Source of the DNA: Linderina pennispora
Taxonomy: Eukaryota > Kickxellomycota > Kickxellomycetes > Kickxellales > Kickxellaceae
DNA: 64,000 nt
Reading direction: 5' to 3'
NCBI RefSeq assembly: GCF_002104995.1
Contig: NW_024468259.1
Span: 558,001 to 622,000 of the forward strand
Under the pieces are notes generated by a model that made no database searches, was not told the origin of the DNA, and saw nothing but the letters and a program-made list of their open reading frames with translations. Position numbers and translations under genes: made by a program. Each line of letters opens with the position of its first letter. Position 1 is the first letter of the stretch. This document shows, piece by piece, positions 10,741 through 33,862 of the stretch.

Positions 10741-11480
10741 CACTGCGTGTCACATCCCGCCTGTTTCGGAACCAACAGCAAAATAGTAAACCACCGACTC
10801 AAGCCGATGTCAACAAAAAGAGTGGAGGACCTGGGTATCGATCCCAGTGCCTCGCGCATGCTAAGCGCGCGCTCTCCCATTTGAGCTAGACCCCCTGAAT
10901 TTCGGAATCGAAGCTAATCCGATTTGACTTCCAATTTCTGATATCGCAGAAAAACAACCATACATAGAATACCGTATCAAGTGGATTGCTCATGATGAAG
11001 CGGTGAAAGCGGGGCTCACACTCTACTGCGGACTACTGATGCACCCATTCACCCAAGCTATCACTTGTATCAGTATTACCAGCTTCTCACTTGAGATTTC
11101 GTATCTGTCATTTTTTTTTTTATTTCCACCTGTTCGTGTTGACTGATTGCACAGGATAACCACTGCCCTACGATGTCGGTGTTGGCTTGAACAATTTGAG
11201 AAAGCAAGCAACTAATAGAGGATAGGTGTTTGTTTCATTTAGAGTCTAGTGAATCAAGAGCCGGATGCATGTCCCAAGTAACATACCAAGTGCAAATGTG
11301 GCTCGTACAGGTGAAACAACACAGTCCAATTCTCACATAAGATCGAGCGCCAGTGTACAGTGGGGTTATTCAATGGTATCTGCCATCAAAGGGTGGTTTC
11401 CAACTACAGAGTCAAAGTACTTTGGCACATATTTCATGTTGCAGATAGAGTTGATTAAGGAAGGAGACAATCCAGACAAA
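10741..11480. repeat. Direct repeat DR-L (about 740 bp, carries tRNA-Ala)
   Basis: Matches 32451-33189 in the same orientation. The differences I found are about eight substitutions and one small T-tract indel, i.e. about 98-99% identity. It starts at CACTGCGTGTCACATCCCGC and fades after the AAGGAGA sequence. The two copies bracket the whole inverted-repeat structure. Confidence 0.9.
10823..10895 (-). tRNA. tRNA-Ala (AGC)
   Basis: 73 nt cloverleaf on the minus strand with anticodon loop CTTAGCA, T-arm CTGGG-ATCGATA-CCCAG and D-arm GCTC/GAGC. The acceptor stem has the G3:U70 wobble that defines tRNA-Ala, and one U6:U67 mismatch. An identical copy is at 32533-32605. Confidence 0.93.
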
Positions 11481-11535
11481 TACCAGCATAGATTAACCAT
11501 GTATTCTATATTTTTTCACCTAAGATATAACTGGT

Positions 11536-12414: not shown

Positions 12415-12639
12415 ATGGCTAGCAGCATCACCAACCAGCCTGAATCAATTAATTTTGCTAGGTCGTGGCTTGACCTAAGCGATGACGAAGATTATTGCAG
12501 TTCCGGGCATCTTTTCAGTTTCCTGTATATGAAGCAGACACATACCAGATCAGCCTCCCCTGAATCTCCAAAAGAGCAGACGAAGCATGATCCACTTCGC
12601 TTCCTCAAGCCCACACTCAAGATAGGGCTATTCCACTAA
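12415..12639 (+). CDS. 74-residue orphan protein, copy A
   Basis: Exactly 74 codons, the same length as a paralog at 31447-31671 on the opposite strand. The two share an acidic central motif (SWLDLSDDED here, SWLDLSDGED there), a basic or aromatic stretch (FSF) and an identical 18-residue C-terminus KHDPLRFLKPTLKIGLFH. No signal peptide, TM or known domain. Equal length plus conserved motifs across otherwise diverged codons argue for a real protein. The last 19 codons lie inside the left inverted-repeat arm; the rest lies outside. Function unknown. Confidence 0.6.
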   Translation: MASSITNQPESINFARSWLDLSDDEDYCSSGHLFSFLYMKQTHTRSASPESPKEQTKHDPLRFLKPTLKIGLFH

Positions 12640-12883
12640 AGCACTGATATCACGCCTTAAACAGCCAAGGTATACGACGCTGCACAGGTGTAATTCTACA
12701 ACCGAGCGTTTCTTTGTAACTATAATAAAAACGAAATACCTGCTACTGAGGAACAACGCTGGCGGCTTGGTTCAGACAGGCCCCCAGCACAGCGGGCGCC
12801 AGCCCCATTCTGGCGTGATTGGTGCTGCAAAAAAAAGAAAAGAAAAAAGCCAGTGCTGCCGCCGCTTGGCAGGCAAAAGAATG

Positions 12884-12955
12884 CTCTCCGACCGGGAATT
12901 GAACCCGGGTCTCCAATGTGACAGACTGGTGTACTCGCCACTATACTATCGGGGA
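12884..12955 (-). tRNA. tRNA-Asp (GUC), left-arm copy
   Basis: 72 nt including discriminator G; anticodon loop CTGTCAC, T-arm CCGGG-TTCAATT-CCCGG, acceptor TCCCCGA/TCGGAGA with a single C3-A70 mismatch. Identical copy at 31131-31202. Confidence 0.92.
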
Positions 12956-13469
12956 TCCACTCATTTTGTTGAATTTCTTGATAAATAAATCATCCATAAG
13001 CATACGGATCATGTGTACTTTGTTTAGCGGCTGCTTACTATTTGTAGGACACTGGCTTTATGCAACGGCATCCTGGCACTAATCCACGCCAATGATAAAA
13101 CAAACTTTGGGATCAACTATAGTGCTTTGTGACATGGCCAACGTGTTCTGTACGCAGCTAAATAATAGACTATATAGATATCTCGAGTAATGAATCGCAT
13201 CGATAGCTTTGACCTGAAACAAGTAGATGAATTGAGATAGTACTCCAAAGATATTGTAACTCCTAAGGATACTACAGAATATTGGTTTGCATGCATGACT
13301 TATGGAGGCCATTCATAAATATAAAAGTTTAAAGAAACTAAATATCTATTATCAGAATAACCAATTAACAAATAATAAATCAATTACTAGCAGTAGATAA
13401 ATATTTTAAAATACAGAATGTTTACCACTGGCCAAAAAGATTCAAGCAACTAGATTAATAAATAAACAA

Positions 13470-13637
13470 AGATGCCAAATATGGTGCTTCTACGAAACCC
13501 CCTTCGGCATCCTGAAAAATTTCAGTTGATACACAATTAATATGCTTCTACTGAGATAGAGGCTGCGTCCCGAGAAATCAACTGAAATTTTTCAGGATGC
13601 CAAAGGGGGTTTCGTAGAAGCACCATATTTGGCATCT
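13470..13637. mobile_element. MITE-like element with about 60-bp terminal inverted repeats (left arm)
   Basis: 168 bp. The ends are near-perfect inverted repeats about 60 bp long, starting AGATGCCAAATATGGTGCTT and reading the same inward from the other end, with a centre of about 45 bp. One mismatch was seen (CCTTCGG versus CCAAAGG region). No coding capacity. A clear target-site duplication was not found. It would fold into a very long hairpin if transcribed. Confidence 0.7.
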
Positions 13638-15480
13638 GAACAAGAAAACAATAAAAATATTAATAATTATTAAATAGCTAACCATTTCTGACTGATCTCC
13701 TATAGCAGATGCACATTCCATTATATCCATACCATTTTTTTTAATGTAAGAGCAGTAGTTATAAGTTGGCTGACAAATGCAATGTAGCCCCAACCTGCAT
13801 CAGTGATTTTTGTTAATGATTTGGAGCAACTGTGCCAAACCACCTGCTTGATTAGCAGTATTCGAGTTAACTTGAATACAAATGAATTGCAATGAATGGT
13901 TGTATAGGACAGTGGCTTAAGGGCTATTATTGTTATTAACCTAGAGGATGAATAGCCATTGAATACATATGGAAAATAGCTTTGGAAGAATGTGACAAAA
14001 GGGAAGAAGGAATACCAACAATCTTTCTGAGCATCTATATATACATTTCATCCTTGTCTACAGCTGCTAAAATTTGAGGTCCAGAGACCCCTGCACTACC
14101 ACAGACACTATGGTTCCAAATCCATATGATTTCAGGAACCTATAGATCAAGGCCCTTAGGCCATAATGGCCATCTATACTATTTCAGGCAACTGGCACTA
14201 CTACTTAGACTAGTACCTACCCTTTTCACCTGGTGATTTCCCCTTCCTTCTTTCATATAGCATATTTCATATATTTAATATATATTATAGAAAGGTGCTT
14301 AGGTATGATATACTTAGATAGACAGCCTCCTGTAGCTGTCTGGAATACATTTACTCTCTGAGACAAAATGAACAGCTCCAAACTACAGAATCAACTAGGA
14401 AATGGCATACCATAAATCACTATAAGTTACTGCTGCCCATCACAGAATATGTATCTACCTAATTTTTAGCTATGACAATAAAGCCTACTACATTATCAAT
14501 AGGATGGTTTGGCTAAGTAAATATATCTATCTAGGTATTTTATCTTATATTCACTGCATAGGTGTCTGCAAGTCCTATACTTATCATATTGCCATTTATA
14601 CCATTTCAGTTGCATTTTTATGAATAATCTGCATAGGTTTATATATGGTGCAATTTATTACTGCCCAGGATCACTCAGACATGAGATGTGTGCCCCTACA
14701 AATCAGTGGAATTATATAGATAGGTACTAAACTAGTCATAAGTGCAGTGTTGACACTTGGCACTACTAGTGTAGAAAATAGAAATAAAACAGAGGATATC
14801 AAAGTAATAGTATAGCCTATAAATGTGTGAATTGTCAGGTTGTTCGGCTAGCTATCACCCTCTTGAGCCAAACATAAACTAGGCACTATGGATCTTGAGC
14901 TTAAAGTCCTGAGAATAATGCTTTAGTGTGAGTGCATAGTATAGAAGTTATCAGAATTAGATTTTCCTTATTTCATTGTTCTATTTTCTCTTTATATTTT
15001 GCTACCTAGCCCAATACTGAACCAGATCCTTCTTGTCTTTCTTCTATATTTTTCTACTTGCTTAGTGCCTTTCTGCACTCCTTCACACTTTCTCAATATA
15101 TACATCTTTGGGTGTTTCAGCCCACTCTACACTCATATCACTTATAACCTTCTGGCAGAAGTTGTGGGAATATTATTGCAGAAATGGTATATGCCAGGGA
15201 TTGTAACTGGAAATGGCATTGTTCAGATCGATCTGTGCATTTCTGCAAGTGTGTTAAGTAGGCAAAGATGCTGCCTTATTAATAATTTGTAAGGATAGCT
15301 GCATCCACTAATGCTATCAATTGTTCTGGTGGAAAATTAATGAGGCTGGGTAAAACTGTGAGATGGTGTAGCTATGAATTAAGAAGAGTGTATCTGGTAC
15401 TGAATGAGGCAAAAAAAAAAGCCAATCATATCTAGATGCCTAGAGCATGTAGCTACGCAATGAGCATCACTTGAGGCATC
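13638..15480. other. AT-rich noncoding block of the left arm
   Basis: About 1.8 kb of strongly AT-rich DNA with no credible gene, next to the MITE. Open frames are short and compositionally biased. The mirror block is 28607-30448. Confidence 0.6.
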
Positions 15481-16217
15481 TGACCATAGCGCAATATCCG
15501 GGGGGGGGGGGGAACATGCGCTATGTACTAATAATACTCCGCAAGCTAATAATGGAATTACAAATGAGGGGTTTCTTCTCTAGGCCATGCCATCACCACA
15601 TGGCCTGCAGAGACAGCCTTTGGTGCAGAAAGGGACAGTGGTCAAGGATAATCACACTGATTTGCCCACAAAGGACACCGCTGTGTGATGATGGGAACAC
15701 AGGAAAGTGTAGGCCATGGCCCAGACCGCACAACGCCACTGCATCTGCATCCAAGCTACCCTTCAGCAAATGTGGTGTAGAAGCCACTGATTTTTTATTT
15801 TATTTTAAAAAGTCGTTTTCTCTTTCGCTTTCCTTACAGTGCTTTTATGTTTTTTTATCACGGGGATAAAGAGGGAAATACAGAGGCACACATTCGCGCA
15901 GTGCCTATCATGTACCGTAATAACGTAGGGGATTCCTGAGATAGCCCTTCTGCACAAGTCTACCGAATAGGCGTTGCAAAAGGTGGCAAACGGATCAGTA
16001 GTGCATTGCTTTGTTAGAGAAAAAGTAAAGCAAACAAGGGCAACGATTCACGGCCACTGTTACATCTGTCTATAGAAACTAATGGACATTACAGATAAGA
16101 GAATGAAGCATGCTATGGCTCTCCGATCTAGCGAGGTAAGATGTTATGAATATTCAGTGAGGATCGCATACAGTAACTCTCGCAAACATGATTTTTTACA
16201 AAAAATCAAAAAAGAAC

Positions 16218-16290
16218 AGCCCGACGGGGGGGTCGAACCCCCAACCTTGAGATTAAGAGTCTCACGCTCTGCCGATTGAGCTAGCCGGGC
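16218..16290 (-). tRNA. tRNA-Lys (CUU), left-arm copy
   Basis: 73 nt on the minus strand, acceptor GCCCGGC/GTCGGGC, anticodon loop CTCTTAA, T-arm GGGGG-TTCGACC-CCCCC. Identical copy at 27797-27869. An A/T-rich tract follows its 3' end (Pol III terminator type). Confidence 0.94.
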
Positions 16291-16763
16291 TGGATTAACG
16301 GATTTGACTCATAATCCAAGCCAATTCACCTCTGAGACCAAGAACTTTAGAATAATAATTGAATATCAGGATCTTCTGCCACGGCATCGTTGTCATGTTT
16401 ACTTGCTTCAAACATACCTTCAGCGCCTCTCTTGCTTCCTCAACCTCACCCTGCTATCAACAGTCTCTCAGTGTATATTAACGATATTCGACCAGCCCTG
16501 GTTTTCTTTTTCTTTTTCTTTTTCTTTTTTTTCTTTTACCAGGTTGCCTATCCCTTATTCAAGCATCATCAGCTAATTTCATGGTTACCATACATGCACT
16601 GACCAGAGCTGTGCGCCTACTATTAAATTTAGCGCACCTTTTCACATTTGTTTTTCTGTATTTAATGTACTATGTGGCTTCTCTCTTGTCACCTCTGTAA
16701 AATCCTGTCAGTTTCGCCAACCTACAGCCTACTGATTGGCCATTGCTAGCCTAGGGGATAGGT

Positions 16764-17060
16764 GGTTATCGGGTGTATGGAAAATTAACTTCTCAAAAAT
16801 ATGACTGAGGGGAAGAAGCAGAGCTGATCGCCTGCCTACGCCTTTGTATGTATGCATTTCGGCCTTGCCCATGGTGGCGCAGGGGGACTTCGGATCCCGA
16901 ATGTCAACAGTCGCAATGCATTAGCACAGCTCTTCAAATATACCTATCGTGGTACTCTAATATCGCCACAGGTACACATACTACTTCCATATTCCCGTCA
17001 CACCTTGCACTATAAGCCCTGCACCACATTAAAACATCTGCTATATGCCCTTTTCCTCCA
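16764..17060 (+). mobile_element. LINE-like remnant in left arm
   Basis: A conceptual translation from about 16852 contains LAHGGAGGLRIPNVNSRNAL followed by AQLFKY, resembling the C-terminal part of non-LTR reverse transcriptases. The first 150 bp match 11536-11690 at roughly 80%. No other RT motif is present, so this is a fragment. Mirror copy at 27027-27323. Confidence 0.4.
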
Positions 17061-17151
17061 ATGCAAGCATAATTACAGTACACACACCGGCCGTTTACTC
17101 ATGCACATACCATATCATTGATAGTTCAATACTAAATACATCATATTGCCT

Positions 17152-17510
17152 TCATTTCCATTCGGCATCATCGGCATTGCTGCTATACTTGCGACGAGCA
17201 AGTTGGATCCAGGTCGGGTTGAGCCGATTCCACTCAATATACTCGGTGTCCTGCTCCCATCCGCCCTTGCGGATCTCTGGCTCCGCCGTAGCATGGTGGT
17301 GCGGCGGTGGCACAATCCCAGACATGTTGCGCTGGTTGTCAGTGTACGCGTTCTGGAATGCTGCTGCATCAAACTTGTCCGGCGAAACACCCACCACATC
17401 CAAAACCGTCGTCCACGAGTACAGAAACGATGTCCGCGTCACCTTGTTCAAGAATGACGTCTTGTCTGCAACTTCACAGTCGATGCGAAACCCGTATGTG
17501 CATAGGTAGT
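17152..17510 (-). pseudogene. Arrestin-related C-terminal fragment (duplicate of the 25271-26935 gene end)
   Basis: Codes for the last about 110 residues of the arrestin-related protein (RIDCEVADKTSFLNK to the terminal DDAEWK). It is identical to the right-arm copy from 17489 downward. Upstream of 17489 the frame continues for about seven codons (DYLCTYGF) with diverged but recognisable sequence, preceded by CCCAG, a good 3' splice site. No start codon or arrestin N-terminus is present, so as it stands it is a stub. It could act as a receiving 3' end if the cassette inverts, or as an extra exon. Confidence 0.75.
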
Positions 17511-17560
17511 CCTGGGCAATGAAATGTTAAATATTTTAAATGGAAACGAACTGTTTTAGA

Positions 17561-20500
17561 TTACCATGAGGAACCTTCAACCTCAAACTTCTCAGCAATG
17601 GCGAAATACCTGGCAACCAGTTTGTGGACAGCAGGCTTCAGGTTCAAGCTGACAACAGCGTTCTGGACCTTGCTAAGGCCATGCGTCCTTACAAGTCTGA
17701 TGACCTGCTCACAAACCGGGTTCGGGTAGGCCATACTGTTGTACCATCTGTCGTGGTAAACAGTTAACCACACTACCGCATCTAATGCAGCCATTAGTGA
17801 GTCACTGCTAGAAATCGGGATGGGGTCCTCCAGGTCCTCGTTGCGAAGCCGCTCCTCGTCCTGCATATCGCTGAATGCCCCTGAGTACAGCTCCAGCAGG
17901 TGCTGCCACGCCTTTGCTGAGAATCGGATGTTGAGCGCATACTCGAAGGCCTCCTTGGCCTCTGACGGGTGGCGAAGGCGCAGCGCAAGATCTCCGAGGG
18001 CCTCCCATTCAGCCTGCGTGTGACGGAATGTGATCTGCTGGCCAGTTGCACGCAGGTTGTGCATTTCAGATCTCCAGGCGGTGTAGGCGCGCAGATCATC
18101 GAACAGGATCATGATCAGGTTGTCAAGCCAGCGCTCGCACAGCCGCTTGCGAATGAGGCCATGGCCAGAATCTTCGTCACTCTCGTCGCCATCCTGACGG
18201 ACACCGGCGTCCTCCTTTGGTTGCTTATCCGTGCCCTCATTTGCACCGCTCTGGTCATCGGCAGGGAGCACGGCCGCTTGAGGAGCTGACACAACATCAG
18301 CAACTTCCTCAGGAGGGCTCTCAGGCTCCGTGAGCTTAGTGTCCTCGCTCTTGGGTTGCTCTTCCTCGGCGTCTGAAAGCTTGATCTCCTCGAGCCCGTC
18401 CTCAATCGCAGCAGTCTTATCCTTGCTTGGCGTGTCGTTCTCACCATCAGCGGTGGCGCTAGCGTCAGCATTGGCGTCGGTTTCAGCTACAGGGGGTTCT
18501 GTCAGCTCCTCGGTGGATGCAGGCTCCAGCTGAGCAGCCTCCTTGAGGTTCTCCTTCGACTTCTTCTTGTTCTTTCTCTTCTTGTTCTTCTTGCTCTTGG
18601 AGCTGCCTCCAGGCTCGGTAGTAGTTTCCACGCCTGCATTTCCACCCTCCGTTTCGTCATTGACCGCCTCATGCTCATTCTTGGGCTTGTCATTCTTGAT
18701 AGCAGGCTCCTCTCCTGGTTCGACCGTGACCTCAGGTTCCATTTCTGACTGTGGAGAAATACCCAAGTTGTCGTCCGCATCAGCCTTGCCGTTCTCAGCA
18801 GGCTCAGCCTTATCGTCCCCAACAGGTTCAGTCTTGGTGTCCTCAACAGGCTCGGCCCTGTCGCCCTCAGTAGGCTCATTCTTAACCGTATCAGCAGGCT
18901 CCGTCACGGGTTCAGTCTCAGCAGGGGATTCAGGCTTGTGTGCTGATGGAGTATCCACAGGGGGCGCAGCGACAGGGGGAGCATCGGCAGATTCCTTAGA
19001 CTTCTGGCGCAGGGCAGCAAGAGGGAGGTCATCTTCATCATCGTCCTCGTCATCGACCGCCTGGTTTGGGTGGGCAGAGTTGCGGTATTCATCTTCCATG
19101 ACAAAGGCTTGGCTCCGGAGCTGAAGCAGCTCATCCCATCCAACAATGCTGACCATACGAGTCAGGTAATCGTACGCACGTGCGAAAGTGCCCTTGAGCG
19201 TAGGTGCTGAGAGTTTGAGCAGAATGCTGTTCTCGTTGATGGCCATCTCCTCAATTAGGCCAGGCGACTCACTCTCCATGCTAGAGCGGCTGTTGGTGGG
19301 AACGGGGCCATGGGCGTGGGTATCGTTCGAAATGTGTTCACCCAGGTTGTACTCTGCGAGGATATCGGACTTGACTGGGAAGTTAATGCGGCGGGGAGTG
19401 GGCACGCGTGGGTAGTCGCGGTCAACAAAGGTGTACATGGGGCAGGTGTTAAGAGTGAGGAGGGCACGCTGGAAGTCCTCGCAGTCAATGTAGATATCAG
19501 TGAGCTTGGCCCACGCCTGGAACTCGCTCGGTGCATACTTCACAGCCATACGCGCGATTGTCAGTGCAGCGCCAGTGTTCTTCTTACGACGCAGAAACTC
19601 TGACTGGGTATAGAGCAGTGGATAGCACGAGGGTCGCACCTTCAACGCCTGGTGCATGACCCGCACTGCCTGGACCTCCTCGTCGCACTCGACGTAAGCG
19701 TCTGCCAGCAGCGACGCGACTTCAGGGTCAACGCCCTTGAACTCTGCCGCTGGCGAGTCGATCGAGCCGCGCTGTCCGCCGAGGGGGGAGTAGGCCAGTG
19801 GTGCCAGGATTTCGGCGGCGCAGTCATCGAACCGGCCGGCATCGGCAAAGTAGCGCATGAGACCATCCACCAAAAAGTTGCGGGCATTCGACGCAACCTG
19901 GGTCTCAGCGTTGGACCCTAGCGCCCAGCCATTCCAGAATTGTTCGACGATAGCCTCCATGAACCGCGTCTCCTCGCGAGAGTTGGAGACGGGCGTCACT
20001 CGCCTGAGACCTGTTACATTGTAGGCCATCGGGTCAGCATAGAGGATCGCACGCAGCATGGCGCTGATGTAGCATTCTTTCCACATTTGCTCGGTGGCCT
20101 CCTTGCGCTCGCCCTGCGCAGTTACGACGTAGGCATCGACACCGCCAGGGATTTTCACTTGCACACGCAGGTCAACATTCGAGAACGCATTATAGCTGCA
20201 GTACGTGCCAGAGGTGATCTTCCAGCTGTTATTCGAGCCAAACCAGCCTGGGGTGTCGTTCAATGAGTACTGCAGCGAGTTGATATACGCTGCTAGTGTG
20301 GCTGAGGATGAAGTATCGACACCCAGGACATGGTGGTAGGACCCGATCTACATGTTGATGAAGGAGTTAGGAGCACATTGACCAAGAAAGCAGCTGAATG
20401 TGGATTAGCAACCACCGCAAGGGGGTTTCAGCACATTATGTTTGTTGACCTGTACTTACATCAGGCTCGTTGCGGTTGGAGCTGTGGATCTTCACGATGT

Positions 20501-20721
20501 GGCAGAGGTCGGGCGGACCGAGCTCGCGAATCATGCCTATATGTAGAAGGGCATCTTTGGGGCAAGCGTTAGCATAGGGGTGTCGCCACTTTGCCAGCCA
20601 ACTGTCAAATTCATGCGTTATGCTTCTGCTTACCGAGTCCCTCGGAGCGGGAATTCAACGACTCGCCAATCTCGTTTTCGAAGATGTCCGGGACATCTTG
20701 CAAGCAGTCGTTGTGTGCCAT
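17561..20721 (-). CDS. BCH1/BUD7: ChAPs-family exomer subunit (Bch1/Bud7/Chs6 type)
   Basis: Three exons: 20721-20634, 20554-20460 and 20347-17561, giving 989 residues. Introns of 79 and 112 bp have GTAAGC..AAAG and GTAAGT..GTAG ends. The spliced N-terminus reads IRELGPPDLCHIVKIHSS, then IGSYHHVLGVDTSSSATLAA, the hallmark start of ChAPs. TPR-like repeats follow. An acidic insertion lies at about residues 480-770, with repeated AEPVEDTKTEP-type units and a KKNKKRKNKKKSK basic patch. ChAPs bind Arf1 at the trans-Golgi and with Chs5 form exomer, exporting selected membrane proteins. The exon ends with stop at 17561 (EGSSW). A possible further splice from 17565 into the repeat arm is discussed in the findings. 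Confidence 0.93.
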
Positions 20722-21012
20722 CTTTCACTAAGCTTGTGTAAATTTGCCAAATAATGCTGCACAAAAGGGGAACTGTTGAATGTTGTTGAGATGAGCAGGA
20801 GGGGGACCAGCGAGTCCAAAACCGGTGCCTATGACGTTGTGCATGCTTCCTTCGCGACTCCAAGACACAGGCGCCGGGATAAATCAATCAAGCGCGCTTG
20901 ATTACTGATCGGCCCACGTTTCGCGTTTTGTGCCAGTGTCGTAAACAAAGCTCGTCTTCCACCTTTCTCATTCTACTAGCTGTAGCCACTATTTTCCTCT
21001 TGCTCCATTTCA
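20722..21012. promoter_or_regulatory. Divergent promoter between ChAPs and gamma-tubulin genes
   Basis: Only 291 bp separate the two ATGs, so the genes probably share a bidirectional promoter. No classical TATA box seen; a CT-rich stretch precedes the gamma-tubulin ATG. Confidence 0.6.
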
Positions 21013-22371
21013 ATGCCGCGTGAAATCATTACCATTCAGGCCGGGCAGTGCGGCAACCAAATTGGCTCCGAGTTCTGGAAGCAGCTGTGTCTCGAGCACG
21101 GAATAAACTCTGACGGGATTCTCGAGGACTTTGCCACAAATGGCACTGACCGGAAGGACGTGTTTTTCTACCAGGCGGACGACGACCACTACATTCCGCG
21201 CTCTATTCTGCTCGATCTGGAGCCACGAGTCATCGATACAATCATGAACTCGCCCTATGGCAACCTGTACAATCCGGAAAACATCTTTGTCAGCAAGGAC
21301 GGGAGCGGCGCTGGCAACAACTGGGCCAGCGGCTACAGCCAGGGCGAGAGGATCTGTGAGGATATCCTGGAGATGCTGGACCGCGAGGCCGACAACAGCG
21401 ACTCACTGGAGGGGTTCAATCTGCTGCACTCTATTGCTGGTGGTACAGGCAGTGGTCTGGGTAGCTTTCTGCTCGAGCGCCTCAGCGACCGGTACCCAAA
21501 GAAGCTGCTACAGACATACTCTGTCTTCCCTAACAACGAGGACTCATCGGACGTCATCGTTCAGCCTTACAACAGCCTGCTGACCCTAAAGCGTCTGACA
21601 AACAACGCCGATTGCGTAATGGTCCTGGACAACGCAGCGCTAACACGTATCGTCGCTGACCGCCTACACATCCAGAATCCTGATATCTCACATACGAACC
21701 GGCTGGTATCGACGGTTCTTGGGGCGAGCACGATGACGCTACGGTACCCTAGCTACATGAATAACGATCTAGCCAGCATCATCGCCCCGCTGATCCCCAT
21801 CCCCAAATGCCACTTTATTTCCACAGCATACACACCATTCACCAGCGACAACGCCGAGAAGGCAAAGGCTGTGCGCAAGACGACCGTCTTGGACGTGATG
21901 CGGCGTCTGCTGCAGAACAAGAGCCGCATGGTTTCGATCACTCCGACCAAGAGCAGCTGCTACATGTCTATCCTAAACATCATTCAGGGTGATGTCGAAC
22001 CGACGGAAGTTCACAAGTCGCTGCTGCGCATCCGCGAGCGTGGCATGGCCCAGTTTATTCCGTGGGGGCCAGCCAGCATACAGGTTGCCCTGACCAAAAA
22101 GTCTCCGTACATCCATACGCAGCATCGCGTAAGCGGCCTGATGATGGCCAACCACACCAGCACCCGCGGCCTGTTTGCCAATATCGTCAACCAGTACAGT
22201 CGCCTGCGCAAGCGCAACGCGTTCCTGGACAGCTACCGCCGCGAGGCAATGTTTGCTGACAGTTTGGAGGAGTTTGACGATGCGCGCAATACGGTGGTTG
22301 ACTTGATCAAGGAATACGAGGAGTGCGAGTCCGAGTCGTATCTGCGGCCACCAACAGCGGCTAGCAGCTAG
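21013..22371 (+). CDS. TUB4: Gamma-tubulin
   Basis: 452 residues, normal length. It starts [18 protein letters not shown], the tubulin N-terminus, with gamma-type sequence after it ([17 protein letters not shown]). The GTP-binding motif [10 protein letters not shown] is at about residues 140-149. Gamma-tubulin nucleates microtubules as part of the gamma-tubulin complex at the spindle pole body. Single exon. It is an essential single-copy gene in most fungi, which matters because it lies inside the cassette bounded by the inverted repeats. Confidence 0.98.
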
Positions 22372-22578
22372 CTCTGGATTCATTAGGATATGCAGCTGAT
22401 TGCGAATATACACAACTCCTGGGAAACCCATGCATGTGACTCCTCCCCATATAGTTGCTGAGGCGTTGTCTCGGGATACGTGACGTACATTCTAGTGGCC
22501 AGGCCGATGATGTTCATCTCCATTTATTCTCCTCTTTCACTTCTCTTGCGAGTTTTCGCCTTCAGCCTCTCCTGTAGC

Positions 22579-23683
22579 ATGGTCGTTAAGGGGATCGTCA
22601 TTGCACTTGCGCTAATAGCCCTCATTCGCTACCTCTCACGGGAAACATCGCTCGACATGATAGGGTAAGTGCAGCCATTTTTCGCGGAGAATATCTGAGC
22701 GATATTCTCCGCGCTCTACCATCTAAAAATCCTGTCCTCGGCAGCTCGAATAGGAAGGCGACACTGGCTACAAGGGCATGTGCAAGCGCACCCGTGTACT
22801 TGCTCAGAGACAGGGGAAAGCGCTCCGTAATGCCCCTATAGAGCATGGCGAGCCTTGGCCGTAGTGGCAGTGGTCGCTCAAAGCTGTCCGTTACTAGCCA
22901 TCTCTTTTCCACATTTATTTCAGCCCTTACTTACTGCGTCCCGCTCTCTCCAAATTCCTATCTTTCTTTCCGCCCGCTAGGAAGTATATTACCGACTGGT
23001 ATACCACCACGTTTACAAACAAGCAGCAGAAACAGATGAAGCTCCGGGAATCACCCATTTACCACGAGCAGCAGTGCTTCTGGCTTTGCGCCAAGCACTC
23101 CCTGAACAATGTCCTGCAGCACGAAGTGTACACCCAGGCGGACTTGGAGCGCATTGCGCGGTATCTGCACGACATACATCCGGAGCAGAGCGGGTGGCTC
23201 AAGTTCAACTCGCACAAGAACTTCCTCGGGTTCGGCGACTACGATGTCAATGTGATGATCTCGGCACTGCAGGAGCAGGGCTACGACCTTCTGTGGCACG
23301 ACAACCGCCGGGACATCGAGGAAGCGGATCTGAGTAACTGCATTGGGCTGATTATCCATATCCAGCCCGACTGGTTCTTCCGCCGTGGCCACTGGTTCGG
23401 CATCAAGTATTTCGATGAGACCTTGACCGTGCCACACGTCCCCAAGGTGTATGTTGGCCAGCCCAGAACGGCAAGGTCCGCTGCCGAGAGGGAGTCGCAC
23501 GATTATGAGACCAGGACATACGACTCTGGGTTCTGGAACCTGGACTCGAAAATTCCGCACCCCGAGCACATTGGCGACCGGCAAAAGTTGAATGAGTTCC
23601 TGCGGAACTTGTACAAAAAGAACCGCGTGCATGTCCTGCTCATTGTGCCCGTCACACACTCATCCGCCTCATCTTCGATATAA
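22579..23683 (+). CDS. Josephin-domain deubiquitinase with N-terminal membrane anchor
   Basis: Two exons, 22579-22664 and 22981-23683, joined at GG|GTAAGT...CGCTAG|GAAG; 262 residues. Exon 1 encodes MVVKGIVIALALIALIRYL, a short hydrophobic helix. Exon 2 encodes a JOSD-type Josephin domain: YHEQQCFWLCAKHSLNNVLQ with catalytic Cys at about residue 65, GHWFGIK with catalytic His at about 166, and FWNLDSKI with the third catalytic residue at about 214. This is a cysteine protease that cleaves ubiquitin chains. The known start MKLRESPIYHEQQ at 23036 would drop the anchor, but the splice junction keeps frame across 18 extra codons, favouring the longer form. Confidence 0.85.
22683..22713 (+). other. 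Perfect 13-bp hairpin within the Josephin-gene intron
   Basis: CGCGGAGAATATC, five-base loop TGAGC, then GATATTCTCCGCG. It sits 19 bp after the 5' splice site. It could affect splicing or be a small palindromic insertion. Confidence 0.6.
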
Positions 23684-24139
23684 TTGCCGCCCTCTTCCAC
23701 ATGTCTGTGTTTTTAGTGGCGTCCAGTACATTGCAGTCTGTACTTTACCATTATTTTACTCTCAGGGATAGCAAAGGAAGAGAGATAGCGAGCGAGAGTG
23801 AGAAGAGGGAGTGCCGGTGGCGCATTGCCAAATGCCGGGCTTGCTATGTAGAAACAACTTGTCCTGTACTTTTAGTATATTTGACTGTCAATAATGAGAC
23901 GCAGAAGCATGTGCAAAGTGCAAGACAAAGAAAACATGTGTAACGATTAAGACAAACGGTCTCGCCGGACCTTGCCCACTCAGAACAATGCGTATATTGA
24001 GCCTGTCGATGCAGTAGCGCCACAATATGTTCGACACCACGAGCAATGACAAATTGTCTTAGCACAACTGGATATGAACGCATGGCAAGCTGTCCAAAAA
24101 TAACTTGGCAAGCCTGTCGATGGTGTGAGATGATGCAGG
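23684..24139. other. Intergenic
   Basis: About 450 bp between the Josephin gene and the TATA box of the next gene; nothing else recognised. Confidence 0.4.
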
Positions 24140-24146
24140 TATAAAT
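24140..24146 (+). promoter_or_regulatory. TATA box of the Tyr/Lys-repeat gene
   Basis: TATAAAT about 165 bp upstream of the ATG at 24305. Confidence 0.5.
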
Positions 24147-24304
24147 GCACCGGGCGCTCCGTCGAGTTAGCTCAAGATACAGCAACTCAACAGCACATCT
24201 TCCCTCTCAACGCTACTTCAACAAACGTGCCGGCACTACTCTCGCTCTTTCCTCCGCAACAGCTAGCTCAACTCAAGCCTACTCTGACTACCATCTTCGA
24301 AAAC

Positions 24305-24904
24305 ATGAGGCTCTTCACCTGCGTCGCTCTTCTCAGTGCTGCTGCCATCCCTGGCTTCTCAGCACCCGTGTCTACGGGCTCTGTCTCGCGCCGTGGTCTG
24401 CTGGATCTGGACCTTGGCCTGTGCCTCGACCTCAGTCTGCTTGGGCTTGTCAACCTCGACATCAACAAGAGTGGCTGCTCGTCAAAGGGAACTGAGCAGA
24501 AGCCGATCAAGGTCGACAAGGAAATCTGCGGGCAGATCAGAAACAACAATGTAAACCCCGATGACATTTACGTCCATTGCGAGCAGCACTGGAGCACCAG
24601 GGAGGCCGAGCATGACAATAACAACGGATATTACAAGAGCGAGACGGGGCCTACTGGTTACGGAAATGCTGGTTACAAGTCCGTCGCCCCTGAGCACGAA
24701 AATACCGGGTACAAGACTGTCGCTCCTGAGCACGAGAATGCCGGGTACAAGACCGTCACCCCCAAGCATGAGAACACGGGATACAAGGCTGTGGTCCCCG
24801 AGTATCACAGCAAGAATGGTGCTGACTGCGACACAGCCCCCAAGCACGAGAACGCCGGATACAAGGCCGTAGCACCTGCATATGTTGCAAACCCCGCCTA
24901 CTAA
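24305..24904 (+). CDS. Secreted protein with 12-residue Tyr/Lys repeats
   Basis: 199 residues from the ATG that gives a signal peptide (MRLFTCVALLSAAAIPGFSA); the frame is open to an upstream ATG without a signal. A leucine/aspartate-rich segment (RRGLLDLDLGLCLDLSLLGL) is followed by a Cys-containing region. Residues about 118-195 hold tandem repeats of the type HENAGYKTVAPE, with four regular units and two interrupted ones. The C-terminus is AYVANPAY. The regular GYK spacing recalls cross-linkable structural or adhesive proteins, but no homologous family is recognised. Extracellular or wall location is inferred from the signal peptide. Confidence 0.7.
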   Translation: MRLFTCVALLSAAAIPGFSAPVSTGSVSRRGLLDLDLGLCLDLSLLGLVNLDINKSGCSSKGTEQKPIKVDKEICGQIRNNNVNPDDIYVHCEQHWSTREAEHDNNNGYYKSETGPTGYGNAGYKSVAPEHENTGYKTVAPEHENAGYKTVTPKHENTGYKAVVPEYHSKNGADCDTAPKHENAGYKAVAPAYVANPAY

Positions 24905-25270
24905 ACACCTATGTTTCCAGAATTCTTGCATACACTTTCCTGGTGAAAGCGGCGCGCCGATCGCAGCGGCTGTGCTTCCAAACTCTGCTTAAATTCTAAT
25001 TATCCTGCTAGCCAAGGATATGTGGTTTTACAGCAGTGTCAACAATGAGATACTTTGGTGAAGTAACAAACCAATCCCCACCCAATTCTTGGCACATGCG
25101 GAAAGCGGGCTTGGCACTTGGGGTGTGATGAGTGGATATTAGCTCTAGGAAACAATCACACCAACACAGACTCAACTTAAAAGCGCCCTTGTCAGAGTCG
25201 GGTGGGTCTTCGAGAACCACAAAAGCGGCACCCTTGATTTCCTTCCTGCTCCTTTCTTTTTGGCTCTTCA

Positions 25271-26935
25271 ATGCAAACCAAATTCAACACTACCCAACCC
25301 AGCTTTTTGCGTCGCAGGTCCGAAACTATTGGCGATATCAGTGAGATGACAGCAAGCAACAGTAACGGCAGCTTTTATATGCCACAAAATAGCCGACAGC
25401 AGCCACCTCAAGTGCCAAAGCGCTCACGGCCAACGCCTCGCCCGCCATCATCGGCGCAACATCGCCTTCAAGGTCTATCCATGTATCTGGACGAACATAC
25501 CCACTCATATGAGGCAGTACAGCCGCCAGAGGCTCCGATAGATATGAACTACAGAAGGCAGCAGACGCAGCAGCAACCCCCATACCCGCAACAAACTCAG
25601 CAGCAACCGACAGCCCGCAGGCCGTCTATCGACCTTGACAAAGCACCCACTACGGACCGCCTTGTAGAGTTTCGCCTGAGTATTCCTGACGGAGTACGCA
25701 ACATGACGCAGCACCCTGGCGACACTATTGTCGGTTCCGTTGTTGTGACTCTAACGAAGCCGACAAAGATATTCCGCATCAGTATCCAGTTCTTGGGTCG
25801 AGAGCGTGTATATCTTCGTGAGAATCCACCCAGTGCGCCTATCGCCATGCACGCCAAGACTGACTATGTTCTGTTCGACCACCGTATGACCTTGTGGGGA
25901 GAGAGAACCACAGATGGCACCCAGCAGAACAACGGGTCAAGCAGACACTGGGGGACAATGGCACCAGGAACGCATGTAATACCGTTTTCAATCTCCATTC
26001 CCAACGTCAACTACCCTTCGGCTATCAGACGCGAAAAGGTCTGCGGCGTAAAGTACACGGTCCAAGCCTTTCTAGAACGGCCCGGGAAATTCACTCTTCG
26101 CAGCACCAGCACACGGCCAGAAGATATAGTCATTGAGCCCATTGCTTACCCGCTCCGGCCGCGCAATGTTCTGCGTATCGACTGCACTATCCCCGGAAAT
26201 CCTGATAATCAGGGTATGCAGGATATCGCTGTAAGAATACAGGGTGGCATCTCCAAGCTACCTGTCGTCGCTGGCGACCGTATCCTCTACAAGCTTGAGG
26301 CATGTGCGGTAAATGACACTGGCGATGATCCACAGATCCGGTCACTCGCTAGCAACTACACCGTGAAGTACATGACCATATACATTGTAGAGTGCCTGGA
26401 GCTGAAGGGAATGATCAAAGGCATCGAGCGGTCGCAAACTCATCGCAACAACGTCCACACTGTGCGTCTGCCACCTAACAGCGATAAGCAAGAGAAGTAT
26501 TCAAATTCAGCCCCATTTTTCACGACAAGCGACTACATACGACTCCCACAAGATCTCTGCCCCTTCGACAGCAAGCTTTTGACACGCACATATGAGCTTC
26601 GCATCGACTGTGAAGTTGCAGACAAGACGTCATTCTTGAACAAGGTGACGCGGACATCGTTTCTGTACTCGTGGACGACGGTTTTGGATGTGGTGGGTGT
26701 TTCGCCGGACAAGTTTGATGCAGCAGCATTCCAGAACGCGTACACTGACAACCAGCGCAACATGTCTGGGATTGTGCCACCGCCGCACCACCATGCTACG
26801 GCGGAGCCAGAGATCCGCAAGGGCGGATGGGAGCAGGACACCGAGTATATTGAGTGGAATCGGCTCAACCCGACCTGGATCCAACTTGCTCGTCGCAAGT
26901 ATAGCAGCAATGCCGATGATGCCGAATGGAAATGA
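25271..26935 (+). CDS. Arrestin-related (alpha-arrestin) protein
   Basis: 554 residues from the first ATG (25271); an alternative ATG at 25346 lies before the domain. A Gln/Pro-rich N-terminus precedes the arrestin N-domain at about residues 125-290 (VEFRLSIPDGVRNMTQHPGD, IVGSVVVTLTKPTKIFRISI, HVIPFSISIPN). The C-domain runs to about 475 (VVAGDRILYKLEACAVNDTG, TYELRIDCEVADKTSF). Alpha-arrestins recruit Rsp5-type ubiquitin ligases to plasma-membrane transporters. The tail contains PPPHHH but no obvious PPxY. The last 113 codons lie inside the right inverted-repeat arm and are duplicated in the left arm. Confidence 0.85.
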   Translation: MQTKFNTTQPSFLRRRSETIGDISEMTASNSNGSFYMPQNSRQQPPQVPKRSRPTPRPPSSAQHRLQGLSMYLDEHTHSYEAVQPPEAPIDMNYRRQQTQQQPPYPQQTQQQPTARRPSIDLDKAPTTDRLVEFRLSIPDGVRNMTQHPGDTIVGSVVVTLTKPTKIFRISIQFLGRERVYLRENPPSAPIAMHAKTDYVLFDHRMTLWGERTTDGTQQNNGSSRHWGTMAPGTHVIPFSISIPNVNYPSAIRREKVCGVKYTVQAFLERPGKFTLRSTSTRPEDIVIEPIAYPLRPRNVLRIDCTIPGNPDNQGMQDIAVRIQGGISKLPVVAGDRILYKLEACAVNDTGDDPQIRSLASNYTVKYMTIYIVECLELKGMIKGIERSQTHRNNVHTVRLPPNSDKQEKYSNSAPFFTTSDYIRLPQDLCPFDSKLLTRTYELRIDCEVADKTSFLNKVTRTSFLYSWTTVLDVVGVSPDKFDAAAFQNAYTDNQRNMSGIVPPPHHHATAEPEIRKGGWEQDTEYIEWNRLNPTWIQLARRKYSSNADDAEWK

Positions 26936-27026
26936 AGGCAATATGATGTATTTAGTATTGAACTATCAATGATATGGTATGTGCATGAGTAAACGGCCGG
27001 TGTGTGTACTGTAATTATGCTTGCAT

Positions 27027-27323
27027 TGGAGGAAAAGGGCATATAGCAGATGTTTTAATGTGGTGCAGGGCTTATAGTGCAAGGTGTGACGGGAATATGG
27101 AAGTAGTATGTGTACCTGTGGCGATATTAGAGTACCACGATAGGTATATTTGAAGAGCTGTGCTAATGCATTGCGACTGTTGACATTCGGGATCCGAAGT
27201 CCCCCTGCGCCACCATGGGCAAGGCCGAAATGCATACATACAAAGGCGTAGGCAGGCGATCAGCTCTGCTTCTTCCCCTCAGTCATATTTTTGAGAAGTT
27301 AATTTTCCATACACCCGATAACC
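27027..27323 (-). mobile_element. LINE-like remnant in right arm
   Basis: Mirror copy of 16764-17060; encodes the LAHGGAGGLRIPNV segment on the minus strand. Confidence 0.4.
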
Positions 27324-27796
27324 ACCTATCCCCTAGGCTAGCAATGGCCAATCAGTAGGCTGTAGGTTGGCGAAACTGACAGGATTTTACAGAGGTGACA
27401 AGAGAGAAGCCACATAGTACATTAAATACAGAAAAACAAATGTGAAAAGGTGCGCTAAATTTAATAGTAGGCGCACAGCTCTGGTCAGTGCATGTATGGT
27501 AACCATGAAATTAGCTGATGATGCTTGAATAAGGGATAGGCAACCTGGTAAAAGAAAAAAAAGAAAAAGAAAAAGAAAAAGAAAACCAGGGCTGGTCGAA
27601 TATCGTTAATATACACTGAGAGACTGTTGATAGCAGGGTGAGGTTGAGGAAGCAAGAGAGGCGCTGAAGGTATGTTTGAAGCAAGTAAACATGACAACGA
27701 TGCCGTGGCAGAAGATCCTGATATTCAATTATTATTCTAAAGTTCTTGGTCTCAGAGGTGAATTGGCTTGGATTATGAGTCAAATCCGTTAATCCA

Positions 27797-27869
27797 GCCC
27801 GGCTAGCTCAATCGGCAGAGCGTGAGACTCTTAATCTCAAGGTTGGGGGTTCGACCCCCCCGTCGGGCT
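27797..27869 (+). tRNA. tRNA-Lys (CUU), right-arm copy
   Basis: Identical to the left-arm copy; anticodon loop CTCTTAA; followed by T-rich TTCTTTTTTG, a Pol III terminator. Confidence 0.94.
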
Positions 27870-28606
27870 GTTCTTTTTTGATTTTTTGTAAAAAATCATG
27901 TTTGCGAGAGTTACTGTATGCGATCCTCACTGAATATTCATAACATCTTACCTCGCTAGATCGGAGAGCCATAGCATGCTTCATTCTCTTATCTGTAATG
28001 TCCATTAGTTTCTATAGACAGATGTAACAGTGGCCGTGAATCGTTGCCCTTGTTTGCTTTACTTTTTCTCTAACAAAGCAATGCACTACTGATCCGTTTG
28101 CCACCTTTTGCAACGCCTATTCGGTAGACTTGTGCAGAAGGGCTATCTCAGGAATCCCCTACGTTATTACGGTACATGATAGGCACTGCGCGAATGTGTG
28201 CCTCTGTATTTCCCTCTTTATCCCCGTGATAAAAAAACATAAAAGCACTGTAAGGAAAGCGAAAGAGAAAACGACTTTTTAAAATAAAATAAAAAATCAG
28301 TGGCTTCTACACCACATTTGCTGAAGGGTAGCTTGGATGCAGATGCAGTGGCGTTGTGCGGTCTGGGCCATGGCCTACACTTTCCTGTGTTCCCATCATC
28401 ACACAGCGGTGTCCTTTGTGGGCAAATCAGTGTGATTATCCTTGACCACTGTCCCTTTCTGCACCAAAGGCTGTCTCTGCAGGCCATGTGGTGATGGCAT
28501 GGCCTAGAGAAGAAACCCCTCATTTGTAATTCCATTATTAGCTTGCGGAGTATTATTAGTACATAGCGCATGTTCCCCCCCCCCCCGGATATTGCGCTAT
28601 GGTCAG

Positions 28607-30448
28607 ATGCCTCAAGTGATGCTCATTGCGTAGCTACATGCTCTAGGCATCTAGATATGATTGGCTTTTTTTTTTTGCCTCATTCAGTACCAGATACACT
28701 CTTCTTAATTCATAGCTACACCATCTCACAGTTTTACCCAGCCTCATTAATTTTCCACCAGAACAATTGATAGCATTAGTGGATGCAGCTATCCTTACAA
28801 ATTATTAATAAGGCAGCATCTTTGCCTACTTAACACACTTGCAGAAATGCACAGATCGATCTGAACAATGCCATTTCCAGTTACAATCCCTGGCATATAC
28901 CATTTCTGCAATAATATTCCCACAACTTCTGCCAGAAGGTTATAAGTGATATGAGTGTAGAGTGGGCTGAAACACCCAAAGATGTATATATTGAGAAAGT
29001 GTGAAGGAGTGCAGAAAGGCACTAAGCAAGTAGAAAAATATAGAAGAAAGACAAGAAGGATCTGGTTCAGTATTGGGCTAGGTAGCAAAATATAAAGAGA
29101 AAATAGAACAATGAAATAAGGAAAATCTAATTCTGATAACTTCTATACTATGCACTCACACTAAAGCATTATTCTCAGGACTTTAAGCTCAAGATCCATA
29201 GTGCCTAGTTTATGTTTGGCTCAAGAGGGTGATAGCTAGCCGAACAACCTGACAATTCACACATTTATAGGCTATACTATTACTTTGATATCCTCTGTTT
29301 TATTTCTATTTTCTACACTAGTAGTGCCAAGTGTCAACACTGCACTTATGACTAGTTTAGTACCTATCTATATAATTCCACTGATTTGTAGGGGCACACA
29401 TCTCATGTCTGAGTGATCCTGGGCAGTAATAAATTGCACCATATATAAACCTATGCAGATTATTCATAAAAATGCAACTGAAATGGTATAAATGGCAATA
29501 TGATAAGTATAGGACTTGCAGACACCTATGCAGTGAATATAAGATAAAATACCTAGATAGATATATTTACTTAGCCAAACCATCCTATTGATAATGTAGT
29601 AGGCTTTATTGTCATAGCTAAAAATTAGGTAGATACATATTCTGTGATGGGCAGCAGTAACTTATAGTGATTTATGGTATGCCATTTCCTAGTTGATTCT
29701 GTAGTTTGGAGCTGTTCATTTTGTCTCAGAGAGTAAATGTATTCCAGACAGCTACAGGAGGCTGTCTATCTAAGTATATCATACCTAAGCACCTTTCTAT
29801 AATATATATTAAATATATGAAATATGCTATATGAAAGAAGGAAGGGGAAATCACCAGGTGAAAAGGGTAGGTACTAGTCTAAGTAGTAGTGCCAGTTGCC
29901 TGAAATAGTATAGATGGCCATTATGGCCTAAGGGCCTTGATCTATAGGTTCCTGAAATCATATGGATTTGGAACCATAGTGTCTGTGGTAGTGCAGGGGT
30001 CTCTGGACCTCAAATTTTAGCAGCTGTAGACAAGGATGAAATGTATATATAGATGCTCAGAAAGATTGTTGGTATTCCTTCTTCCCTTTTGTCACATTCT
30101 TCCAAAGCTATTTTCCATATGTATTCAATGGCTATTCATCCTCTAGGTTAATAACAATAATAGCCCTTAAGCCACTGTCCTATACAACCATTCATTGCAA
30201 TTCATTTGTATTCAAGTTAACTCGAATACTGCTAATCAAGCAGGTGGTTTGGCACAGTTGCTCCAAATCATTAACAAAAATCACTGATGCAGGTTGGGGC
30301 TACATTGCATTTGTCAGCCAACTTATAACTACTGCTCTTACATTAAAAAAATGGTATGGATATAATGGAATGTGCATCTGCTATAGGAGATCAGTCAGAA
30401 ATGGTTAGCTATTTAATAATTATTAATATTTTTATTGTTTTCTTGTTC
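28607..30448. other. AT-rich noncoding block of the right arm
   Basis: Mirror of 13638-15480. No credible genes. Confidence 0.6.
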
Positions 30449-30616
30449 AGATGCCAAATATGGTGCTTCTACGAAACCCCCTTTGGCATCCTGAAAAATT
30501 TCAGTTGATTTCTCGGGACGCAGCCTCTATCTCAGTAGAAGCATATTAATTGTGTATCAACTGAAATTTTTCAGGATGCCGAAGGGGGTTTCGTAGAAGC
30601 ACCATATTTGGCATCT
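30449..30616. mobile_element. MITE-like element (right arm)
   Basis: Mirror copy of 13470-13637, with the same about 60-bp terminal inverted repeats. Confidence 0.7.
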
Positions 30617-31130
30617 TTGTTTATTTATTAATCTAGTTGCTTGAATCTTTTTGGCCAGTGGTAAACATTCTGTATTTTAAAATATTTATCTACTGCTAGT
30701 AATTGATTTATTATTTGTTAATTGGTTATTCTGATAATAGATATTTAGTTTCTTTAAACTTTTATATTTATGAATGGCCTCCATAAGTCATGCATGCAAA
30801 CCAATATTCTGTAGTATCCTTAGGAGTTACAATATCTTTGGAGTACTATCTCAATTCATCTACTTGTTTCAGGTCAAAGCTATCGATGCGATTCATTACT
30901 CGAGATATCTATATAGTCTATTATTTAGCTGCGTACAGAACACGTTGGCCATGTCACAAAGCACTATAGTTGATCCCAAAGTTTGTTTTATCATTGGCGT
31001 GGATTAGTGCCAGGATGCCGTTGCATAAAGCCAGTGTCCTACAAATAGTAAGCAGCCGCTAAACAAAGTACACATGATCCGTATGCTTATGGATGATTTA
31101 TTTATCAAGAAATTCAACAAAATGAGTGGA

Positions 31131-31202
31131 TCCCCGATAGTATAGTGGCGAGTACACCAGTCTGTCACATTGGAGACCCGGGTTCAATTCCCGGTCGGAG
31201 AG
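31131..31202 (+). tRNA. tRNA-Asp (GUC), right-arm copy
   Basis: Identical to 12884-12955; anticodon loop CTGTCAC; discriminator G at 31202. Confidence 0.92.
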
Positions 31203-31446
31203 CATTCTTTTGCCTGCCAAGCGGCGGCAGCACTGGCTTTTTTCTTTTCTTTTTTTTGCAGCACCAATCACGCCAGAATGGGGCTGGCGCCCGCTGTGCT
31301 GGGGGCCTGTCTGAACCAAGCCGCCAGCGTTGTTCCTCAGTAGCAGGTATTTCGTTTTTATTATAGTTACAAAGAAACGCTCGGTTGTAGAATTACACCT
31401 GTGCAGCGTCGTATACCTTGGCTGTTTAAGGCGTGATATCAGTGCT

Positions 31447-31671
31447 TTAGTGGAATAGCCCTATCTTGAGTGTGGGCTTGAGGAAGCGAAGTGGATCATG
31501 CTTTACTTTATCTGTCGTTGGTATCTTCAGTTTGTGTTTTGATCTTGATTGCTTCTTGTGCCAGAAACTAAATCTCTTTTTACTTCTGGAGGCATCTTCC
31601 CCATCGCTCAGATCGAGCCATGACCCAGAAGGGTTGATAGACGTAGGTCGATCATCGGTGTTGCTTGGCAT
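31447..31671 (-). CDS. 74-residue orphan protein, copy B
   Basis: 74 codons from the ATG at 31671, matching copy A in length. It shares SINPSGSWLDLSDGED-type sequence, an FSF motif, a basic middle (KKQSRSKHKLK) and the identical C-terminus KHDPLRFLKPTLKIGLFH. The 3' part lies in the right arm and is base-identical to copy A from the KHD codons onward; the 5' part is diverged. The frame is open further upstream to 31770, but copy A's length supports the 31671 start. Function unknown. Confidence 0.6.
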   Translation of the reverse strand: MPSNTDDRPTSINPSGSWLDLSDGEDASRSKKRFSFWHKKQSRSKHKLKIPTTDKVKHDPLRFLKPTLKIGLFH

Positions 31672-32450: not shown

Positions 32451-33189
32451 CACTGCGTGTCACATCCCGCCTGTTTCGGAACCAACAGCAAAATAGTAAA
32501 CCACCGACTCAAGCCGATGTCAACAAAAAGAGTGGAGGACCTGGGTATCGATCCCAGTGCCTCGCGCATGCTAAGCGCGCGCTCTCCCATTTGAGCTAGA
32601 CCCCCTGAATTTCGGAATCGAAGCTAATCCGATTTGACTTCCAATTTCTGATATTGCAGAAAAACAACCATACATAGAATACCGTATCAAGTGGATTGCT
32701 CATGATGAAGCGGTGAAAGCGGGGCTCACACTCTACTGCGGACTACTGATGCACCCATGCACCCAAGCTATCACTTGTATCAGTATTACCAGCTTCTCAC
32801 TTGAGATTTCGTATCTGTCATTTTTTATTTATTTCCACCTGTTCGTGTTGGCTGATTGCACAGGATAACCACTGCCCTACGATGTCGGTGTTGGCTTGAA
32901 CAATTTGAGAAAGCAAGCAACTAATAGAGGATAGGTGTTTGTTTCATTTAGAGTCTAGTGAATCAAGAGCCGGATGCATGTCCCAAGTAACATACCAAGT
33001 GCAAATGTGGCTCGTACAGGTGAAACAACACAGTCCAATTCTCACATAAGATCGAGCGCCAGTGTACAGCGGGGTTATTCAATGGTATCTGCCATCAAAG
33101 GGTGGTTTCCAACTGCAGAGTCAAAGTACTTTGGCACATATTTCATGTTGCAGATAGAGTTGATTAAGGAAGGAGAAAATCCAGTCAAA
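32451..33189. repeat. Direct repeat DR-R (about 740 bp, carries tRNA-Ala)
   Basis: Second copy of 10741-11480 in the same orientation, about 98-99% identical, offset 21.7 kb. Confidence 0.9.
32533..32605 (-). tRNA. tRNA-Ala (AGC), second copy
   Basis: Identical cloverleaf to 10823-10895, including G3:U70 and the anticodon loop CTTAGCA. Confidence 0.93.
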
Positions 33190-33862
33190 CGTCCGCTTTT
33201 ATAAGTAGCATGTAGCCTATATTTTATCCGGCAATTTAGACGTGTTTGGTTGTGTTGACCTCGAAGCAGCAGCGCATTTCAAAGCCACCATACCAAACCA
33301 ACAGAACAAAGGCTTGGCACCCTGGACCACCCACCCGGTCCCGCATTTTTCTGATCCTATCCTATTTTTCCATAAGGCTCGAGGATATTTATCCCTTCAG
33401 AAGGTTAACAGGCTGTAGTAATAGACATAGTCTCTTTAGTAAGAGCTTTTGACATTAAACTATAGCTACTAGGGAACTGAAATTCAAATTTATCCAAAGT
33501 CAGATGCCTTCCTTCTATCAGCGCTCATGGTAACCCACAAATAATAATATAGAACAACGGTAGGAGCCTAATGAGACGTTAGTTAAAGTGCCTGAGAAAA
33601 AGTACTAGGTAGCATGGTTTCCTAGTAATAAACTATGCGGGTGCTGATAAAACCAATCGTAAACGCTCACAAAAATATATTGGAAAAACCAGGATGAATC
33701 TCCGCTGCTAGGAGCCAGCTGGGGGTATTTAAGCAAATGCTGAGTGCGCATACGGAGCCCTTGAGCTAAGCCGTGTATGGCTATGGATAAAGCTACACCA
33801 CTCTCAGTGAGTACGCCGCCCCAGGTACGACGGAACAGCCCTAGGAGTATGACATTACTATT
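33190..33862. other. Intergenic
   Basis: About 670 bp without a recognisable gene; ends at the SEC7 stop. Confidence 0.4.

Follow-up and report, generated by a model that had tools for sequence, protein, structure and literature searches.

A long inverted repeat around a block of ordinary genes in Linderina pennispora, with arms very probably kept alike by gene conversion within each haplotype

Two questions are raised by a locus of the saprotrophic mould Linderina pennispora (Kickxellaceae), in which two near-identical arms of 4.9 kb in opposite orientation enclose a cassette of 9.1 kb: what keeps the arms alike, and does the cassette between them invert? The locus lies in a stretch of 64,000 nucleotides, referred to here as the window, which corresponds to bases 558001-622000 of contig NW_024468259.1 (C13) in the assembly GCF_002104995.1 (26,172,285 bases, 222 contigs). 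A first-pass annotation of the window described the repeat and took it for a flip-flop locus of the kind known from mating-type inversion in yeasts. The analysis described here recovered the same repeat and points to another explanation of its likeness, namely an inverted duplication whose arms have very probably been kept alike by repeated gene conversion within each haplotype.

The repeat itself is real and was confirmed at the coordinates first given for it (12583..31503). Comparison of the window with itself by BLAST paired positions 12583-17501 (left arm, plus strand) with 31503-26586 (right arm, 26586..31503, minus strand) over 4,920 columns at 99.88% identity, a length and likeness that rule out an origin by chance, and left a unique spacer of 9,084 bases (17502..26585) between them. 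The arms differ by three one-base gaps and three mismatches. Each gap is a length difference in a homopolymer, of T near 13735, of A near 15410 and of G near 15500, which the first-pass annotation had noticed; its statement that there was no substitution did not hold, as positions 17490, 17492 and 17494, in the terminal 12 bases at the inner end of the left arm, differ from their partners, so that the strictly matched arm of C13 stops at about 17489. In two further 10-kb pieces of the genome (L016 and L017), no internal repeat was detected at an E value of 1e-10.

A second version of the locus was found when the genome was searched with the left arm. Among the best candidates, which were the ones scored, were both arms of C13, many copies of a dispersed element some 400 bases long and, on contig C180 (49,359 bases), a second, diverged pair of arms. 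This contig aligns with C13 in conserved order, in blocks that are 96.9-97.6% identical. Its version of the repeat shares arm ends and flanks with that of C13, and the cassette points the same way in both; the cassette sequence matches these two places of the genome only. Judged from these alignments, C180 is a haplotig of the window, about 97% identical to it outside the arms. Elsewhere in the window there is a stretch that contig C199 matches at 98%, and the contigs that bear two distant relatives of a short gene at the arm ends (described below) align in three blocks, two of them about 96% and one 87% alike. Together, these three cases argue that the assembly contains two haplotypes, at least in part.

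The four arms (left and right of C13 and of C180) were aligned over 4,931 columns, 4,236 of them ungapped. At 265 ungapped sites the two arms of C13 agree with each other and differ from the two arms of C180, which also agree with each other; no site separates left arms from right arms, none groups them crosswise, and four are singletons; three substitutions separate the arms of C13 and one those of C180. The arms of each haplotype are therefore closer to each other than to the corresponding arms of the other haplotype (265 informative sites against 0), which is the pattern of concerted evolution. Insertions and deletions behave likewise, 13 of the 17 runs in the alignment being haplotype-specific and four affecting a single arm. 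One such tag is a dispersed element of 398 bp which is present in both arms of C13 (13303..13702 on the left and 30382..30783 on the right, ends approximate) and in neither arm of C180, where the left arm resembles the unoccupied site, with TAT, as read by eye, as the apparent target duplication. Some 260 bases delimited by GCATCT are likewise haplotype-specific and were placed by the genome search only in the two arms of C13.

The dispersed element has at least dozens of copies in the genome, many of them 94-98% identical, and an internal fold-back of 168 bp, features of what is probably a young non-autonomous mobile element.

The same pattern reaches into coding sequence at the outer arm ends, which, as first proposed, are spanned by two ORFs of 74 codons (12415..12639 on the plus strand and 31447..31671 on the minus strand). 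The last 57 bases of each lie within its arm, and the final 18 codons are common to both. The last codon is His in both genes of C13 and Gln in both genes of C180, a single change common to two otherwise different genes. As the arm ends and flanks are shared by the two haplotypes of this one assembly, the duplication predates the split between them, and since then the arms have been copied over one another. The homogenisation is observed directly in the comparison of haplotypes; gene conversion is the simplest mechanism for it, as separate duplications would need identical ends twice. The three substitutions of C13 are confined to the last 12 bases of one arm end, where conversion tracts would rarely reach.

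Between haplotypes, the arms do not diverge evenly. The arrestin 3' codons that they contain (see below) differ at three of 338 sites and the two tRNA genes at none of 148, and the non-coding arm between the two coding ends differs at 262 of 3,830 sites (6.84%), compared with 5.23% and 4.16% in the nearest flanks and 3.19% (425/13,322) over all non-coding stretches compared, about twice this last mean. On these counts the functional pieces of the arms are conserved and the remainder is free to change. Raised diversity is predicted by the theory of converted duplicates, and the raised divergence of the arms fits that theory; it would also fit a higher local mutation rate and is not used as support here.

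Each arm carries two tRNA genes, one tRNA-Asp (12883..12955, minus strand, on the left and 31131..31203, plus strand, on the right) and one tRNA-Lys (16217..16291, minus strand, and 27796..27870, plus strand). Ten ORFs chosen from those in or at the arms, both 74-codon ORFs included, gave no Pfam family at an E value of 0.1 in a scan in which spliced genes were not sought. Short ORFs of the 74-codon type form a small family without Pfam assignment, with two distant relatives (35-36%) at C1:862953-863156 and C150:17796-17993.

Outside the arms, on both sides, lies a direct repeat of 780 bp (10741-11517 and 32451-33228 in the window, 16915-17647 and 37634-38364 in C180) with one tRNA-Ala in each copy. 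Within either contig its two copies are about 97% alike; between opposite sides across haplotypes the figure is 92-94%, so that this repeat too has perhaps been partly homogenised. Two segments distinguish the flanks of C180: about 3.4 kb (1169-4532) unmatched in the window or in C13:548001-558000, which were either inserted in this haplotype alone or deleted from C13, and about 355 to 358 bases adjoining the left arm (18470-18822), absent there in C13, which are a 75-77% inverted relative of window positions 33501-33855.

The direction in which the duplication arose is suggested by the gene at the inner ends. An arrestin-domain ORF (25271..26935, plus strand; Pfam PF00339 and relatives) spans the inner end of the right arm, with its final 350 bases inside the arm, and its final codons are present again in the left arm, as had been noted at first pass. 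The left copy (17152..17501, minus strand) is a gene fragment, since its frame meets stop codons on the cassette side. Of 27 relatives that were found, 10 were aligned, from Martensiomyces, Dipsacomyces and Coemansia; the C-terminus encoded by the right arm is conserved in them, and this conservation argues that the right arm, which contains the end of the whole ORF, is the original. Beyond the outer ends there is a weak likeness by way of the related 74-codon ORFs (52% identical including the shared end; a 35-base DNA match at 80%); when 500 bases to either side of the inner ends were compared at high sensitivity, the best result was a 15-base match at chance level (E 0.36). Homology at one junction and its absence at the other suggest that the arm was copied from right to left in the course of repair. 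The right arm would have been copied in inverted orientation to the left side, joined at one end within the 74-codon genes, which are related, and at the other to unrelated sequence next to the gene for a ChAPs protein; break repair begun by homology and finished by end-joining would be expected to leave such junctions. Conversion would then have spread base changes, insertions and deletions and the mobile element to both arms of one haplotype.

From left to right, the cassette holds an ORF with the ChAPs family (17561..20263, minus strand; Pfam PF09295), the stop codon of which lies 59 bases from the left arm; a tubulin ORF (21013..22371, plus strand; PF00091 and PF03953), which is taken here, as at first pass, to be gamma-tubulin; a Josephin ORF (23036..23683, plus strand; PF02099); an ORF with short tandem repeats and no Pfam family (24278..24904, plus strand); and the arrestin-domain ORF. 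The ChAPs ORF agrees with the L. pennispora protein P0055 at 876 of 900 positions, and 22 of the remainder form a single gap, probably an intron that is read through in the ORF. When the cassette was inverted in silico, the arrestin ORF and both 74-codon ORFs were preserved letter for letter, so the locus shows one of the features of a flip/flop region, in that its long and nearly identical inverted arms enclose genes that would come through an inversion whole. The first-pass statement that a crossover would leave all coding joints intact and change neighbours, not proteins, is thus borne out; its reading of the intact joints as design is not, since they follow automatically from arms that are identical and from the fact that no gene spans a whole arm. 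The 3' ends of the ChAPs, arrestin and both 74-codon ORFs face or enter the arms, the last three ending inside them, so that a flip would exchange downstream neighbours and not the promoters of these genes. A minority of conversion events would be expected to end as crossovers that flip the 9.1-kb cassette; the flip would be nearly silent and the orientation of the cassette would drift, unregulated. Occasional silent inversion is plausible on these grounds, and the chances that the cassette has been inverted at some time in the species are put at about even.

Several points weigh against conversion with inversion as set out so far. No inverted molecule was seen, and both haplotypes have the same orientation. 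In Saccharomyces, the orientation of a comparable region was unchanged over about 53,800 mitoses and 950 meioses (PMC9731477), so inversion may be very rare in Linderina too. In addition, the arms are known from the assembly consensus only, which leaves some room for polishing that falsely equalised them.

The strongest competing account accepts the conversion and departs from the above only in its outcome: gene conversion without crossover would homogenise the arms, the cassette would never or almost never invert, and its orientation would be fixed in the species. This account falls somewhat short of an even chance. The agreement of the two haplotypes in orientation favours it, although two haplotypes are a tiny sample and the Saccharomyces study puts the share of conversions that finish as crossovers at about 4% (PMC9731477). 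It is also favoured by gene linkage in relatives, which was read from equal contig sizes in three protein searches (arrestin, Sec7 and ChAPs; for ChAPs, 120 of 382 matches were listed), some rows of which are clusters with several contigs, a feature that weakens the counts. Among the matches listed, 14 relatives appear for both arrestin and ChAPs, and 10 of them have the two genes on contigs of the same size; for arrestin and Sec7 the count is 2 of 10 (Martensiomyces and Coemansia sp. RSA 1813). This speaks for an old block; the arrestin and Sec7 contigs were also nearly equal in size in the sister strains RSA 2598 and 2599. Against linkage, the arrestin and Sec7 contigs differ in 8 of the 10 relatives; most of these contigs are short, but those of C. 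reversa measure 104,804 and 421,206 bases. For C. interrupta the contig size is the same for Sec7 and ChAPs (16,848), with no arrestin match among the matches listed.

An assembly artefact, either a false copy of one arm or arms equalised by the assembler, was named in the first-pass annotation as an outcome that would undo its reading. Arms of 4.9 kb are long for some read sets, the comparison draws on assembled contigs, and the one-base gaps sit in homopolymers in the manner of sequencing errors. A false repeat would nevertheless have had to arise on two contigs with the same structure around a unique spacer of 9.1 kb, each with its own arm sequence and different outer flanks, and this explanation is accordingly held to be very improbable. 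Equally improbable is a structural element, a centromere or a chromatin boundary, that selects for like arms with tRNA genes. Structures of this kind with tRNA genes in like arms have parallels in yeasts, and the arms here are AT-rich (GC 0.40 in their non-coding part) with two tRNA genes each; the centre, in contrast, is packed with five ORFs, four of them with Pfam families.

A dedicated flip-flop switch, in which regulated inversion alters the expression of a gene as in the mating-type inversion of Ogataea, has in its favour the near-identical arms, the short spacer and the joints that stay intact after inversion. Against it, both haplotypes are in the same orientation, and the junction genes turn their 3' ends to the arms, so none of their promoters would be swapped. 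No mating-type family was found by Pfam among 20 ORFs of the window and the 10 ORFs chosen in or at the arms, so that none of the ORFs scanned points to a mating-type locus here. A genome-wide search for the HMG box gave no support for one either (homeodomain and alpha-box families were not searched genome-wide), the nearest matches on the contig lying at C13:415939-417562, some 153 kb from the left arm. A regulated flip-flop is thus unsupported and is given hardly any probability. The same holds for a separate recent origin of the arm duplication in each haplotype, with no conversion, which would likewise yield arms alike within and unlike between haplotypes. It would take two duplications that ended at identical points, inner and outer; in both haplotypes the left arm adjoins the same flanks and contains the same cut arrestin fragment.

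Conversion between the arms of an old inverted duplication remains, then, the preferred explanation, and the arms of this locus clearly evolve in concert. The locus adds an early-diverging fungus to the few cases in which inverted repeats around ordinary genes are kept alike by overwriting each other, and its 265 marker sites and mobile-element tag across two haplotypes make orientation and conversion readily testable. A literature search confined to open-licence papers retrieved no paper on this locus.

Known systems with long inverted repeats resemble the locus to different degrees. The interval between IR1 and IR2 of Ogataea (Hansenula) polymorpha is likewise flanked by long identical inverted repeats and can flip; there the flip is induced by starvation and moves mating-type genes between active and repressed places (PMC4238957). 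In contrast, the scans in Linderina gave no mating-type gene and a flip would exchange no promoters, so the resemblance is one of form only. The FLNA/EMD inversion of the mammalian X chromosome (HsInv0389) is closer, with inverted repeats around a small gene block and conversion proposed as the reason for their likeness (PMC3961182; PMC9731477); recurrent inversion is reported there (PMC3961182), whereas Linderina has one orientation in two haplotypes.

The closest known case, ahead of FLNA/EMD, is the flip/flop region of Saccharomyces chromosome XIV, where inverted repeats of 4.2 kb that start at a tRNA gene are homogenised within strains, inversion is recurrent and gene conversion is argued to be the homogenising mechanism (PMC9731477). 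It shares with Linderina a similar arm length, tRNA genes in the arms, homogenisation within strains and an enclosed block of ordinary genes. The two differ in that both orientations occur in many strains of Saccharomyces and no inverted cassette was seen in the two Linderina haplotypes, in the length of the spacer (24 kb versus 9.1 kb) and in phylum. They differ also in arm content, as each Saccharomyces arm contains two complete sporulation genes, whereas in the Linderina arms no known protein-coding gene was recognised in complete form. The reason for the homogenisation in Saccharomyces was left open (PMC9731477), and the arm content of Linderina implies that the identity of encoded proteins need not be the general one. 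A tentative idea, at present judged clearly less probable than not, is that the locus is a flip/flop region outside mating-type loci in which the tRNA genes, of which each arm has two (each Saccharomyces arm has one), cause forks to stall and breaks to be repaired from arm to arm, with no need for identical proteins as a driver, and that recurrent silent inversion would arise in this way across fungal phyla.

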